Origin: Bryum argenteum
Taxonomy: Eukaryota; Streptophyta; Bryopsida; Bryales; Bryaceae
Assembly: GCA_037043015.1 (NCBI GenBank)
Contig: CM073326.1
Location: forward strand, 7,076,345-7,140,344
Direction: 5' to 3'
DNA: 64,000 bases
Below, one piece after another: positions 3,818-59,945 of the stretch. The notes beneath the pieces were generated by a model. The model saw only the letters and a list, made by a program, of their open reading frames with translations. It had not been told where the DNA came from and made no database searches. The position numbers and the translations under genes were made by a program. Each line of letters starts with the position of its first letter. Position 1 is the first letter of the stretch.

Positions 3818-6800
3818 ATGGCGAGGAGTAGTCGGCAGCGTTTCAGATTTGCGCTGTTGTGTTTGCTACTTCTGGTGTCGTCTCGGGCGAGTTGTATGAC
3901 GGAGGCGGACTTCGCTGTTAAGGAGAAAACTGTGTTGCGTCTCGCTGATGACGCTCTTCGTTTAGCTTCGGATACGGAAGATTGCGGTAAGGTGCCTCTC
4001 ACCTCGTCGCATGATAGTTTGAATATGAGTTTCAGAGGACTGTCCAGATTTTAAGACTCGAGGCTATATTTGCAATATCTAGCCAATGGATCACGTCGGG
4101 TGAAATCAGGGTCTAGGAAGTCTGAATATTAGCTTGCTTGGAGAAGTCGAGCCGGGGGGAAATAGCCTGGGACAAATCTCACAATCTGCTTTGGAGAAAA
4201 TGAAGATGAAGAGGCAGGAGTCGATGGATCGAGTAGTCTGTTGAGTAGTGCGCCGATTACTGAACGGTTTGGATCGTAGGATTGCTGATAAAAGACGAAG
4301 ATGTTGATTCGGAGTGTTTCTGAATGCATTCAGGGCTTTCGTTGTGTGTGGACAACTGCGCTCGTCATGCCTGCTCGGCGACTCACATTGACAATTTCCT
4401 TTGCGCTAAGACGCTACGCTCTGTCAGCGATTGCGAACAGTTCAACCCTAACTCCACGTGCTCCCAGTTGCTACTCAATTTTGGCAAGAATGGCTTTGTC
4501 AGGTGTGTTGAGCTTATACTCCTGGTTACTGAACCTTTGATTGCAATTTGGTTCAGAAGTGTGTCAAATGACCTCTTGTAACAATGTAGGAGACTTGTTA
4601 CAAGGTTATGAGAAGTATTTGGATTTCGTCTGCAGGATTCCGCCACCTTTCTACAACTACTCGAATTCAAATTTGAGACCGGAAATTAAAAGAGCCATTT
4701 GTTCACAATCGAATCTACAGTTTACCGCGAGCAGCAAAATCAACCTCACTTTCTGGAACTATTATGGCTCCGCCGAAGGTGTATGGCGAAGTTATCCTGG
4801 CCGGGTACACACCTTCTCCACTGTTCTTACAAAGTTTTCAAGAGCTGAACATCCGTCTTAATTCTGAGATGATGCTTAGTCACTTTCATTGCTTTATACT
4901 TTCCTCCGTAACAGTTCAGAGCTCAGGAGCGCCATTGGCAGACTAACATGAACCTGGAGATATCTGATACATATGTATACGTATATGTTTGAATTCATGC
5001 AATCCCTCGAAGGCCACTTTTTTTTTTTTTTTTTTTTTTTTTTCAAAGCTGACGCTAAAACCTGATTTTCAACAGGTAGCGGATCCTGAGAATGGTTGCA
5101 TCACATATGATCCACGCAAACGGCCATGGTATATCTTGGCGACGGCGGTAGCGAAGGACTTAGTGATTCTTCTTGACACAGAGCAGCAGAACAACAAAAC
5201 CTTCAACTTGTCAGTGAACATCGCATCCGAGCTTTTTGATACGCTAAGAATCAACGACACAGTGAATTTTGCCACGTTTAATTCCGCCACTGCAGGTCTA
5301 CAGACCCCGTCCTCGGTACGTAAACTGATAATTGATCCCGGGCGCGTCATGGTTACGACTTGACGTTTCTGAATACGTTTTATTGACCTGATTTTGATGA
5401 TCTGCAGCTCCTTTATGCTCCAAGCCTTGGCGGACTCAACAGCTCAGAGCTGCGACAAGTTTTCCGTTTATCGAACCTGACGAATAGCGCAACAAACAGC
5501 TTCTCTGACCTTGCAAAAGGATTCAACACCGCATTGACGACGCTTAATCCGACAAGCAAATTGAAAGTGCGCTCTTTAACCTTCTACAATTCGCTCTTTT
5601 GAACCTCATTCTTCCAATTCCGGTCAAGTCAGAGTCAGGTTGATAAAATTCTATCTTAGGTTCCAAGAAATATGTGAATTTCACGCATGTAATATGTTGT
5701 TGACGGGGAAAGATAGCAGTTCTGTATGTACTAAATCAGACATCATGTTAGAGCTAAGACTTTCAATATAAGTTCCTGCAGAGAGCTTCAGGTGACTTTA
5801 CATATTCGAGATACTTTCTTTGCTTCAGGAATAATGAATTCACCGTAACTGTGGCTCCTGAGAATAGAATAGCCTTCTACCTATTTTCTTGTGAGCTCAA
5901 TCTCGTTACATTGGTGATATTTCATGTCATTTTGAGACATGGTAATGGAGAGTGAGAAATCTTCAATGGAGGTGTTTCTTGTGCAGTTTTGTTGAATTAT
6001 GCGTTCTAAAAAGCGATTGTCGCGTTTGCAGATAATATTGGTGCTCACAGACGGCCGCTTCTCCAAGAGCACCACGTTCGGCAACGATCTGGAGCTCCAG
6101 AGTGCGGTGGCGGCGTTAAAAAGCGAAAACGTGATCGTCTTCTTCTTCAGCATCGGTCCGGAGGAGTCTGAAAATCCGCAGATTGATCCATTAACAACTC
6201 TTCGAACGCTGTCATGTCAGATGAATAGCACCGTTACATATGTTAGCCAACAGGATGCGTACTGGAATCCGTTATGGTCCATACGGCCATACTTCGATTA
6301 CCAAGCACAAATGCGGTTTGTTAATCAGACTCCCTTCTGGACAGACACGTACGTTGACTTCGATGGCTTAGGCGAGGTCTCCACCGTGACTTATCCAGGT
6401 TTCTTCTTACACTAATTTGTAAAGCTCATTCAATCACTTCAGCATTTCCAAGCCGTCGAGATTATAACTTCATACTTTTGACTTTTCTTGTGCAGTCTTC
6501 AAGAATGGAGTCTTATACGGAGTTGCCGGTATTGATGTTTTTGTCCAGGAGTCCGACAAAGAAATCATTAAAAGGAAAGCTGTCAACCCGGTGGTGCCAG
6601 CAACTCCATTGGCATGCCAAATAACTAATGTAAGTGCCGATGTAATTACTAAGTTCCGGTATTCATGAGTCTTAATCCAGAGAGTCAATTATCAAGCTGT
6701 AAGTACTCATCAGATGATCGTATGACGTTAAAATTGTCAATCATTTCGATGAAAAGAAACGAGGACGAGAGTAATTCAATTTCTCGTAACCTATCTTTGT

Positions 6801-8920
6801 TCTCGCATATCAGTAAAGATGAAAGCAACAGAGTCTGTGCTTTGATGATGCTCGGTTTTGTGCACGAGGTTGACGTTTGATCTGGTGTTTTAAAGGTGAA
6901 CCTGAGCCAATGCACAAAAGCTGTGGATCCAGGGCTACAGCCGTTGTGTCCTCAAGATGTGTACCTAAATGAAGCTCCAAAGAAAGTTTATGAGAAGCTT
7001 CTGTGTTGTGAAAATTGCGCTCCCAAAATCAGCAGGAAACGAAATCTTCTGCTGATCTATTTAGGCGTGTCAGGAACATGTGTTGTGGTCATCATACTCT
7101 TGCTAATCATCCTAGTCCTCGCATCAAAATACAGAACTGCTCGAAAGTACGTTCGAGAAATACAAGAAGGTGACTTCCTCAATGCCGCTGCCAACTTTTT
7201 TGAATCGTTTTAACTTGTCGCTCAATCACTATTTAAATTGGTGGTGCTCCTGTTTCAGATTTTGCGAAGGCGTCTATCTCAACTACCCTGTATACGTACC
7301 GAGAGCTGAAGAAAGCGACTCGGAATTTCCATAAGGACAATAAGCTCGGCGAGGGTGGCTTCGGAGAAGTGTACCTGGTAACATCCTCCGCCATATATGC
7401 AATAATTCACCGGTTTCTAACAAGCATTCGAAGTTTCTTGCATTGGTCGACAAGTATTACTTATTTCTGAGAGGAAGTGCTCATTTATTGTTAATCGGAT
7501 CGAGCAGGGGAAAGTGAAAGATGGAACGCTAGTGGCAGTCAAGAGGCTCTCGGACGACTCTAAGCAGGGGAAGCCTCAGTTTCTGGCGGAGGTGACGATT
7601 ATCAGCAAAGTACAGCATAGAAACCTTGTGAAGTTACGTGGCTGCTGCGTTGAAGGGCAACATAGACTGCTCGTTTACGAGTATTTGCCGAACAAAAGTC
7701 TTCGCGAGACTTTGTTAGGTAAAACCAAACCATTCCGAAGCTTTATATGAAAAGGAAAGAGATTCTGAAGCTAATAGTCTCATTGACATTGCAGGGAAGC
7801 CGGAGCAGTTGATTCCCATGGATTGGCCAACGCGCTTTAATATTGCCGTTGGAACCGCACGAGGTCTGTCGTATTTGCACGACGAGATAACTCCCCGCAT
7901 CATTCACAGGGACATAAAAGCCAGCAACATCCTTCTTGATGCAAACCTAGAAGCCAAGATCTCTGACTTCGGACTTGCAAAGCTCTGCCCAGACGAGCAA
8001 ACGCATCTCACCACTGACATCGCAGGCACATTGTAAGCATCTTGGCCATGTCTCCTTTAAACAGAAGTTGAACTCTTCTACCATGCTTGGGATATTTTAG
8101 ACACCGAAAGCTTTGAAGATCCTAACCTTGTTTTTGGATTGGGATGAAGGGGCTATATGGCACCAGAAATGACGCGCGGCCAATTTTCAGAGAAGGTGGA
8201 TGTGTTCGCTTACGGCGTCCTTCTTTTGGAAATTGTAACCGGTAGACTTACAATGAGCACCACCGACTTTGGAGCTTCATTTTGCCTTGTTGACGAGGTA
8301 AATCATTCATAACCTCATGTTTATCACATTTGAGCTTTTCAGTTTCAGGTGAGCTTGGTGAATGATCAATTCCAGTAGATTCCAAGTCCCTATTTTGATA
8401 TTTTGATAATTGCTTTCTAATCTGACCTTGGTATCCTTCCTTCAAGGTCTTGAAGTACAGAGTAATAGTTTAATTTCTAAATTGTCCTATTTATGTGTAG
8501 ATGCGGGAGCTCTATTGTAGGGCACAAGAAACAGGCAAGGAAGAGTATCTCCTTCGTCTTGTGGATCGAAATCTCCATCAAAATTACTGCAAGGACGAAG
8601 TTGTGCGACTCTTGAAGATCGCTCTTATATGCTCAAATGACAGTGCCAACGCCCGTCCCTCCATCTCCCAAGTGGTTTCAATTATCCTAGGAATGCACGA
8701 CGTTCCGGAGTATTTGCTCAAGTCCCTATGCCAAGGTTTGCGATCATCTCCATCTATTGCTCTTTCCAACAAAGAAATAATGTGGGATGTTGACACATAC
8801 GAGTTTTCCAACATTTTGCCTCTCCATGATGATCGCAACAACTTATCTCATAGTGACACTACAGGTAGAGCAAGTAGATCAGAGCCAGGAACTATTAGCC
8901 CAGATATGGAGGGACGGTAG
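3818..8920 (+). CDS. Receptor-like kinase with alpha2-delta-like dCache/VWA ectodomain
   Basis: Predicted plasma-membrane receptor kinase of 938 residues. Exons: 3818-3986, 4334-4502, 4636-4804, 5076-5315, 5408-5566, 6032-6398, 6496-6629, 6896-7169, 7259-7377, 7508-7718, 7795-8032, 8150-8297 and 8501-8920; every phase matches. Order: signal peptide (1-25); Cys-rich segment; YDPRKRPWY at 180-188; VWA domain from about 196 with TDG at 308-310; Cache half ending GVAGIDV at 433-439; single membrane helix about 520-545; kinase about 577-860. The kinase has GEGGFG (591-596), Lys612, HRD (708-710), DFG (728-730) and GYMAPE, so it is an intact RD kinase resembling the plant LRR-VIII/DLSV type. The ectodomain follows the calcium-channel alpha2-delta plan, a dCache split by a VWA. 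The MIDAS DxSxS motif reads DTEQQ, so metal binding is probably lost. The ligand is unknown; amino-acid sensing is my inference. An apparent frame clash at exon 2/3 disappears if the acceptor is 4635. Confidence 0.88.
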
Positions 8921-10680: not shown

Positions 10681-11301
10681 TCAGCAGCAGACACTTTGAG
10701 TAGCAAAAGCGTCCGGGGAAGGGTTACGGCGCAAGAGATTCGGCTTCGGTTGCTCAGCAGCTAGACCAGGAGTGTCCATGATTTTCTGCAGAAGCTCATC
10801 GAAACAACGTTGCACATTGATGCTAGTCTTGGCGCTCGCTTCGAGAAACAAGCAGCCATGCTGTCGGGCGAACGCAATCCCTTCTTTCTTCGTCACCACG
10901 CGCGCGCTCTCTTCCAAGTCCACCTTGTTGCCGATCAACATCTTAATACAGTCCTTGTTCGTGGAGAATCGCTCTACTTCTTTCAACCACGCGTCGGATA
11001 AATCTGTAAACGTCGCGCGTCGAGTAACGTCGTAAACTAAGATAATCCCCTGCGCTCCTCGATAATACGTGCTTGTCAATGTCCGAAACCTTTCTTGCCC
11101 CGCCGTGTCCCAGATTGTCAGCTTCACTTGTTTCCCGCGGAAAGTGATTTGCTTCACTTTGAAATCCACTCCGATTGTTGGCGCCAGGTCGTCGAATTTT
11201 CCCGCCGTGAAGCGAAATAGCAAACTGCTTTTTCCGACTCCGGAGTTTCCTATCAAGAGGATCTTGAACAGGTGCTCGAAATCTTCACCACCGGTAGCCA
11301 T
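10681..11301 (-). CDS. RABC: Rab GTPase of the RABC/Rab18 type, intronless
   Basis: A 206-residue small GTPase for membrane traffic, and a single uninterrupted reading frame. All nucleotide-binding motifs are present: GNSGVGKSS (P-loop), switch I with TIGVDFK, WDTAGQERF (switch II), GNKVDLE (guanine specificity) and EASAKT. It ends in SVCC, a double-cysteine site for geranylgeranylation, so it should be membrane-anchored. Switch I and II and the overall sequence fit plant RABC (Rab18), a class linked to ER, lipid-droplet and peroxisome-associated traffic. Length is normal. Plant RAB genes usually carry introns, so the lack of any suggests either an intron-loss lineage or a retrocopy. No adjacent poly(A) is visible to prove the latter. 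Confidence 0.93.
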   Translation of the reverse strand: MATGGEDFEHLFKILLIGNSGVGKSSLLFRFTAGKFDDLAPTIGVDFKVKQITFRGKQVKLTIWDTAGQERFRTLTSTYYRGAQGIILVYDVTRRATFTDLSDAWLKEVERFSTNKDCIKMLIGNKVDLEESARVVTKKEGIAFARQHGCLFLEASAKTSINVQRCFDELLQKIMDTPGLAAEQPKPNLLRRNPSPDAFATQSVCC

Positions 11302-59099: not shown

Positions 59100-59741
59100 T
59101 TAGCTGGATGGAGGAGGGCAATTGGAGATGAGCCCGTGCTCCAGCAAGTAATTGATTATGGTTTCCGCCATGCGCTCCGGCGTGACGCTCTCGCCATCGC
59201 CGTCGGTAGCCTCCAGGGTGACCTCGGGATGCTCACTAGCTTCATAGGGGTCATCGATCCCGGTGAATCCCTTGATAACTCCGGCTCTAGCGAGCTTGTA
59301 CAGGCCCTTGCAATCGCGAGCCTCGCAGACCGAGAGGGGCACTTTCATGTAGACTTCGACGAATTCGCCGGCGCGCACGAGGGAGCGCGCGAACGCCCGG
59401 TCGCGAAGGTAGGGCGAGATGCAGCTGACGATGCTGACGAGCCCCGCGTCCGCGAACAGCTTGGCCACTTCCCCGACGCGGCGGATATTCTCCGTCCGGT
59501 CCTGGAGCGCGAACCCCAGGTCGCTGCACAGGCCGTGACGCACATTGTCGCCGTCCAGGATGTAAGAGAGTTTGCCCATGCGCGAAAGCGCGTGGTCAAG
59601 CGCGCACGCTACTGTTGATTTGCCGCTCCCGCTCAACCCTGTCAGCCACACCACGCATCCCTGCTGGTTCAGGAGACGCTGCCGCGACGCCCGCGTCACG
59701 CACCCTTGCTGCCACACTATGTTGCTGCACGCGGGAGCCAT
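59100..59741 (-). CDS. APK: Adenylyl-sulfate (APS) kinase, intronless
   Basis: Phosphorylates APS to PAPS, the sulfate donor for sulfotransferases. The 213-residue single-exon frame starts at MAPACSNIVWQQG; NIVWQQ is typical of plant APS kinases just before the domain. Motifs: GLSGSGKST (P-loop), DGDNVRHGLCSDLGF (APS-binding), ENIRRVGEVAKLFADAGLV, ISPYLRDR and the lid segment DCKGLYKLARAGVIKGFTGI. The domain looks complete. The frame stays open 13 codons upstream into a minisatellite; I prefer the internal ATG. There is no transit peptide, so the product should be cytosolic. Plant relatives usually have introns. The lack of introns and strong GC bias against AT-rich neighbours suggest a retrocopy or intron-poor lineage. 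Confidence 0.9.
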   Translation of the reverse strand: MAPACSNIVWQQGCVTRASRQRLLNQQGCVVWLTGLSGSGKSTVACALDHALSRMGKLSYILDGDNVRHGLCSDLGFALQDRTENIRRVGEVAKLFADAGLVSIVSCISPYLRDRAFARSLVRAGEFVEVYMKVPLSVCEARDCKGLYKLARAGVIKGFTGIDDPYEASEHPEVTLEATDGDGESVTPERMAETIINYLLEHGLISNCPPPSS

Positions 59742-59747
59742 GGCTCT

Positions 59748-59945
59748 CAACCCACGCCAAGGACCCTTCCGAACCCGCACTCCCTACCACGACCCTCCAA
59801 TCCCTGCGTCAAAGACCCTTCCGAACCCGCACTCCCTACCAGGACCCTTCAATCCCTGCGCCAAGGACCTTTCCGAACCCGCACTCCCTACCAGAACCCT
59901 TCAATCCCTGCGCCAAGGACCCTTCAGAACCCGCAATCCCTACTA
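59748..59945. repeat. 52-bp minisatellite, about 3.5 units
   Basis: Units of 52 bp start CGCACTCCCTACCA and end CTTCCGAACC. Each differs at a few bases. The array begins seven bases upstream of the chosen APS kinase ATG, so it occupies that gene's leader or promoter. The unit length is not a multiple of three. Confidence 0.88.

Follow-up and report, generated by a model that had tools for sequence, protein, structure and literature searches.

The 64,000-nt stretch of Bryum argenteum DNA analysed here (the window; GCA_037043015.1, CM073326.1:7,076,345-7,140,344, forward strand) carries a gene that, on sequence comparison, we are inclined to read as encoding a single-pass receptor kinase whose ectodomain, a Cache module with an inserted VWA domain, shares common descent with animal alpha2delta and CACHD1 proteins and makes the protein a candidate amino-acid sensor. 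The gene occupies positions 3818-8920 of the plus strand. Its 13 exons join into a single 938-aa open frame and all 12 introns are of the GT-AG type (Table 1). Exons 3 to 7 make up the span 4636-6629, from the start of exon 3 to the end of exon 7, to which the original prediction had been assigned; both this interval and the residue numbers that went with it (R185, W187, Y188, D438) are correct in the splice model matching the relatives. Joining exon 2 to position 4560 instead, which places 26 more residues before exon 3, was ruled out, the added stretch being absent in 10 of 10 aligned relatives. Bacterial contamination was also rejected; against it stand the 13 spliced exons, the plant kinase, the 20-Mb contig and the presence of paralogues on other contigs. 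Two other unbroken frames on the minus strand of the window were identified by eye: one of 206 aa (10681-11301) encodes a Rab GTPase (Rab18/RabC-like) and the other (59100-59783) resembles adenylylsulfate (APS) kinase.

Table 1. Exons and predicted functional elements of the receptor-kinase gene (window positions)
Feature	Position	Strand	Basis
Exon 1, aa 1-56: hydrophobic N-terminus (likely signal peptide, by eye), ectodomain start	3818..3986	+	Alignment with moss relatives
Exon 2, aa 57-112: N-terminal Cys-rich segment	4334..4502	+	Alignment with moss relatives
Exon 3, aa 113-169: Cache module, first part	4636..4804	+	Aligned to moss relatives and alpha2delta-1
Exon 4, aa 170-249: YDPRKRPWY and VWA start	5076..5315	+	Alignment with moss relatives
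Motif Y180-x4-R185-x-W187-Y188, first half of predicted amino-acid pocket	5106..5132	+	Alignments
VWA domain inside Cache module, within exons 4-6 (boundaries approximate), metal site DTEQQ	5154..6310	+	PF00092
Exon 5, aa 250-302	5408..5566	+	
Exon 6, aa 303-424: VWA end, Cache resumes	6032..6398	+	
Y409-x-D411, second half of predicted pocket	6350..6358	+	Alignments
Exon 7, aa 425-469: last Cache strand and beginning of stalk	6496..6629	+	
D438, equivalent to alpha2delta-1 D491 and PctA D173	6534..6536	+	Alignments; residue names from the available parts of PMC9901441 and PMC10104139
Exon 8, aa 470-560: Cys stalk (CCENC, aa 506-510), membrane helix (~aa 520-547, by eye)	6896..7169	+	
Exon 9: kinase domain start	7259..7377	+	
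Exon 10: kinase, VAVK lysine	7508..7718	+	
Exon 11: kinase	7795..8032	+	
Exon 12: kinase, YMAPE	8150..8297	+	
Exon 13: kinase end, C-terminal tail, stop	8501..8920	+	

The layout initially described, in which YDPRKRPWY is followed by a VWA domain, GVAGIDV, a membrane helix and an intact kinase, is present in the protein in every part. In Pfam searches, only the VWA domain (PF00092, 30.3 bits for a cut-off of 23.8) and the kinase (PF00069, E 8.6e-48) score above cut-off. The kinase has the catalytic motifs VAVK, HRD and DFG, and BAK1 is the solved-structure sequence that it matches best (E 6e-80); from its LRR-VIII/CRK-like look, we presume that it belongs to the DLSV subfamily. With an ectodomain, one membrane helix (by eye) and an RD Ser/Thr kinase, the protein follows the receptor-like kinase plan. 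A GPI anchor is improbable since the hydrophobic helix is followed by the kinase. No Cache family reaches the Pfam cut-off in the window protein or in its Ceratodon relative P0002, which may be why database names miss the ectodomain type. For the window protein, the nine families listed at E values up to 10 do not include dCache_1. PF08473 (VGCC_alpha2) is not among the Pfam families listed for this protein either, and the ectodomain is too short for that region plus a second dCache; neither PF08473 nor PF08763 (Ca_chan_IQ) had a match in the genome of origin, or in the controls.

A dCache signature had been claimed for the ectodomain. The pocket motif that forms part of it is indeed there; a double Cache is not seen, a single Cache module being found by sequence. 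The match to PctA spans chain residues 88-170 of 270, which we take to be the first Cache module, and no second module was found by sequence. The interval of about 80 residues separating D438 from the membrane helix is a Cys-containing segment with the CCENC motif. Furthermore, the metal site of the VWA domain is degenerate, reading DTEQQ instead of DxSxS (MIDAS), and DxSxS is missing from all 14 moss-type rows (window and P0001-P0013). Because no second Cache was found and the metal site is degenerate, we class the protein neither as an alpha2delta subunit nor as a canonical dCache. The ectodomain appears to have one Cache module, whose pocket is of the dCache_1AA type and which might function as dCache_1AA does.

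Homology to the animal proteins is evident from searches of PDB sequences. A phmmer search with the ectodomain (a query containing the 26 extra residues) retrieved alpha2delta-1 at E 2e-13; with a six-row moss-type profile carrying the correct exon junction, the values were 1.3e-21 for alpha2delta-1, over 281 profile positions, and 9.3e-11 for CACHD1. The two alpha2delta-1 values rule out a chance motif and bear out the alpha2delta-type split Cache/VWA layout that had been proposed: as in alpha2delta and CACHD1, the VWA domain separates the first half of the pocket from the second. The predicted likeness to bacterial amino-acid Cache receptors emerged once the VWA domain was cut out in silico. 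A VWA-less profile of five rows (window, P0005, P0007, P0009 and P0014) aligned with PctA (8.1e-10), PctB (7.5e-9), PctC (1.9e-4), three more chemoreceptors (1.2e-7 to 1.3e-5) and a diguanylate cyclase sensor (5e-10), with PctA, PctB and this sensor each matched in one stretch. In Pfam, MCP-like_PDC_1 matched five of five VWA-less members (best E 6.9e-8) and dCache_1 three of five (best E 7.7e-4). Judged by these alignments, the ectodomain and those of animal alpha2delta and CACHD1 go back to a common ancestor.

The amino-acid motif, which reportedly originates with Gumerov et al. 2022, is complete in the window protein, with seven of seven positions present (Y180, R185, W187 and Y188 in the first half; Y409, D411 and D438 in the second). 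Arg185, Trp187, Tyr188 and Asp438 had been assigned to motif positions from the start, and they align there with alpha2delta-1 and PctB; Y409 and D411, which also match, were missing from that assignment. The alpha2delta-1 equivalents are Y236, R241, W243, Y244, Y450, D452 and D491. In the PctB alignment, made with a four-row VWA-less profile without P0014, PctB shares Y, R, W, Y, Y and the final D and has Glu at the place of D411. We take D146 of PctA to be the counterpart of D411. The other PctA motif residues are given as Y121, R126, W128, Y129, Y144 and D173 in the available part of PMC10104139; on this numbering, the spacing within each motif half is the same in the two proteins, Y144-D173 and Y409-D438 both measuring 29. 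The motif itself was used as published in the accessible section of PMC9901441.

The window protein, alpha2delta-1 and P0014 (a metagenomic relative described below) agree at all seven motif positions, against a background of 47 invariant columns among the 264 that they share (hypergeometric, 4e-6). When only the Cache part is considered, the same three proteins have 25 invariant columns among 96 (P 4e-5), and 37 of 96 are identical between the window protein and alpha2delta-1 (P 8.6e-4). These three-row and pairwise tests were used instead of a ten-row invariance test, which was discarded as circular, its rows having been chosen for an intact motif. At the position of alpha2delta-1 Ala215 (A217 in PMC9901441), the window protein has a tryptophan, W163. 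On the strength of docking, PMC9901441 (in the part consulted) explains by a Phe at this position why alpha2delta-3 and -4 do not bind bulky ligands and gabapentinoids. A gabapentin-like ligand is thus unlikely for the window ectodomain, by analogy, with W163 standing where alpha2delta-1 has a pocket Ala. Since PctB has a Tyr at the place of W163, this residue counts chiefly against gabapentin and less against large amino acids generally.

The window gene is not a lone oddity and belongs to a moss gene family. Database searches, whose sensitivity is bounded by shared five-residue words, returned 14 clusters of relatives in total (11 matches among 7995 scored candidates, 13 among 7996 and 8 among 115). 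Seven clusters are named Ceratodon or Physcomitrium, six are unnamed and closely similar, and one, P0014, is metagenomic; we infer from sequence likeness that the six are also moss. The databases searched gave only moss-type rows and one metagenomic protein. A prokaryote genome scan with two ectodomain peptide patterns, beyond whose reach distant relatives may lie, matched 21 stretches and no relative. One Physcomitrium member, P0003, is named L-type lectin receptor kinase IX.1-like, a likely misnaming: no legume-lectin family occurs among the 25 families listed for 13 members, and a hepatic-lectin N-terminal family matched weakly (E 0.024) in 2 of the 13.

P0014 is a 626-aa protein with the same ectodomain: it shares the N-terminal Cys segment, the split Cache/VWA arrangement, the full motif, a CCxxC stalk and one hydrophobic helix with the window protein, but it has no kinase and its VWA metal site, DTSGS, is intact. 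It matches alpha2delta-1 at E 4.7e-28, is probably eukaryotic, and links the moss and animal forms.

A tree built without the 324-aa fragment P0013, and in which the placement of P0014 (end branch 5) is unsure, resolves the moss proteins into group I (window and P0001-P0005; support 95/100), group II (P0007, P0009 and P0011; 96/96) and a clade with Gln at position 185 (P0006, P0008, P0010 and P0012; 100/100). Residues were counted over 14 rows (window and P0001-P0013), truncated rows included, with one row missing at each position. Position 185 is Arg in nine and Gln in four; position 187, Trp in 11 and Gly in two; position 180, Tyr in 10 and Phe in three; position 409, Tyr in 12 and His in one; position 411, Asp in 12 and Ser in one; and position 438, Asp in 13. 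All seven motif positions are kept in the window protein and in the seven covering relatives of groups I and II (P0001-P0005, P0007 and P0009), at 51-75% identity. The Gln clade has also altered W153 (4/4), Y180 (3/4) and W187 (2/4); as read from the alignment, the pocket changes as a unit in this clade. The same four sequences have HGD for HRD in the kinase (P0009 and P0013 lack the loop). A Bryum copy at C9:11.45 Mb combines HGD with Arg, so HGD is not generally tied to Gln. By analogy, the Gln clade recalls amine-type Cache receptors such as PacA, which binds betaine and in which Q165 is the closest equivalent of the motif Arg (PMC10104139, available part), a likeness to be taken only as a lead.

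Further copies of the ectodomain were sought in the B. argenteum genome (258.8 Mb, 25 contigs). Besides the window, single loci lie at C4:1.37, C7:11.12, C9:11.45, C6:10.13, C11:3.80 and C2:33.05 Mb. Clusters occur at C9:6.69-6.70 Mb (three copies), C10:12.99-13.00 Mb (three) and C5:14.97 Mb (at least three), and partial matches at C5:17.46 Mb (truncated), C4:15.48 and C5:14.74 Mb (fragments). The C4:1.37 and C7:11.12 Mb copies have RD kinases of the window's type. The copy at C9:11446774-11448089, which has Phe at position 180, is followed after a hydrophobic helix by a different kinase, with the loop HGDVKPANILL and one long kinase exon reaching to about 11449990. Given this different kinase, the sequences point to two or more joinings of the ectodomain to a kinase, or else to a replacement of the kinase. 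No kinase was found near the other copies in the flanks fetched, using a moss kinase profile and a loop pattern; an unrelated kinase lies on the opposite strand near C5:17.47 Mb. In five of the kinase-less copies, the protein closes with a Cys stalk, then a helix, then a short tail. One genomic match to dCache_1 was listed (C4:5917609-5917824; 25.8 bits, below cut-off); it adjoins a histidine kinase core (HELRTP) and fits the published view of plant Cache domains.

For these copies, motif residues come from exon-by-exon inspection of the open frames and not from gene models. The pocket core, defined as R185, W187, an aromatic at 409, an acidic residue at 411 and D438, is kept in four of four kinase-bearing copies, representing two kinase types, versus 1 of the 11 readable copies in which no kinase was detected (one-sided Fisher p 0.0037), a comparison that ignores relatedness, tandem copies not being independent and p being uncorrected for tandem duplication. 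The count excludes both fragments, the truncated copy at C5:17.46 Mb and a C5:14.966 Mb copy whose end is unread. Thus, at least one core residue is lost in 10 of the 11 copies; the kinase-less C2 copy and P0014 keep the full motif. In the C6:10.13 Mb copy the motif DNA reads LDHVRSRIWF, position 180, outside the counted core, being unread. The array at C9:6692391-6702422 encodes three tandem VWA-Cache membrane proteins with no kinase detected, DxSxS kept and Ser in place of D411.

Among known systems, the first Cache domain of alpha2delta (CACNA2D1), split by an inserted VWA, shares with the window protein the order Cache-VWA-Cache and all seven motif positions; the membrane-proximal Cys segment of alpha2delta-1 aligns weakly with the moss profile (4.9 bits, i-Evalue 65). 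Unlike alpha2delta, the window protein has no detected second dCache, a degenerate metal site, Trp for Ala215, and a transmembrane kinase where alpha2delta has a GPI anchor; an intact DxSxS, missing here, is a feature of alpha2delta-1 and -2. CACHD1, which is not known to carry a kinase, also has its VWA inserted in Cache but shows a further Cache match (CACHD1 chain residues 734-829). PctA and PctB (dCache_1AA) share the pocket motif and its spacing; they have a double Cache, no known VWA and a chemotaxis output. Plant glutamate receptor-like channels are ion channels with an unrelated ligand fold. Like the window protein, they are hypothesised amino-acid sensors (PMC3483616, available part). 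Receptor kinases with a VWA ectodomain have been counted before, as the V in DLSV (PMC13317940, in the portion available); in the literature searched, neither a Cache module nor an amino-acid pocket is named in them. The accessible parts of two papers confine plant Cache domains to histidine kinases (PMC4822843) and animal dCache to alpha2delta and Cachd1 (PMC9901441). No description of this ectodomain type in plants was found in the literature searched, a scope outside which Gumerov et al. 2022 and Lehti-Shiu et al. lie.

We envisage that a free alpha-amino acid in the apoplast would bind the Cache module, with R185 holding the carboxylate and D438, together with D411, the amino group, in a pocket lined by W153, Y180, W187 and Y409 and narrowed by W163. 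Binding would alter the arrangement of VWA and stalk, or receptor association, and the Cys stalk would relay this change so as to switch the kinase. Kinase-less relatives with a lost ligand residue would be non-sensing partners. A wider proposal, that the moss receptor-kinase family senses amino acids through a pocket of the gabapentin/attractant type coupled to two kinase types, with the kinase-less, mostly broken-pocket copies as possible decoys or co-receptors, is put forward more tentatively.

Alternatively, the pocket could be a structural site, where a permanently bound amino acid (or none) stabilises folding and export, the real ligand being a protein or cell-wall partner at the VWA face. 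This explanation, which we consider rather unlikely, can be entertained because Trp or Phe alone in the alpha2delta-1 site had no detected effect on surface expression, and it accords with the description of the alpha2delta VWA as a protein-interaction domain (both from the available part of PMC9901441). However, none of the 14 moss-type rows has DxSxS, whereas most retain the pocket. In the C9 array, three copies keep DxSxS and all of them lost D411; they also speak against a structural site, an argument weakened since P0014 keeps both.

It is improbable that the pocket serves a non-proteinogenic amino-acid-like compound such as GABA, beta-alanine, ACC or betaine: the window gene has Arg and the full amino-acid motif, against which can be set the resemblance of the Gln clade to amine-type receptors (compare PacA Q165 and betaine; PMC10104139, in part) and the mention of GABA among natural ligands of Cache domains in bacteria (PMC10468136, available part). 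Least credible of all, and to our mind very improbable, is that the signature is a relic of an ectodomain recruited from an alpha2delta-like gene, unused and conserved by inertia. Core losses in 10 of the 11 readable copies without a detected kinase would suit such a history, but retention of the seven positions in the window protein and seven group I/II relatives at 51-75% identity goes against it, as does the confinement of Arg loss to one clade.

To return to the amino-acid sensor reading, an alpha2delta-type Cache on plant receptor kinases is a concrete candidate for perceiving an extracellular amino acid in a land plant, by a route that differs from that of glutamate-receptor-like channels. 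The natural paralogues with an altered pocket provide ready-made controls. The alpha2delta-type ectodomain is now placed outside animals, which suggests that it is older than its calcium-channel role. As judged from the conserved motif, mosses may perceive a free amino acid through a receptor of this kind; if so, it would be, to our knowledge, the first amino-acid-sensing receptor kinase in plants.
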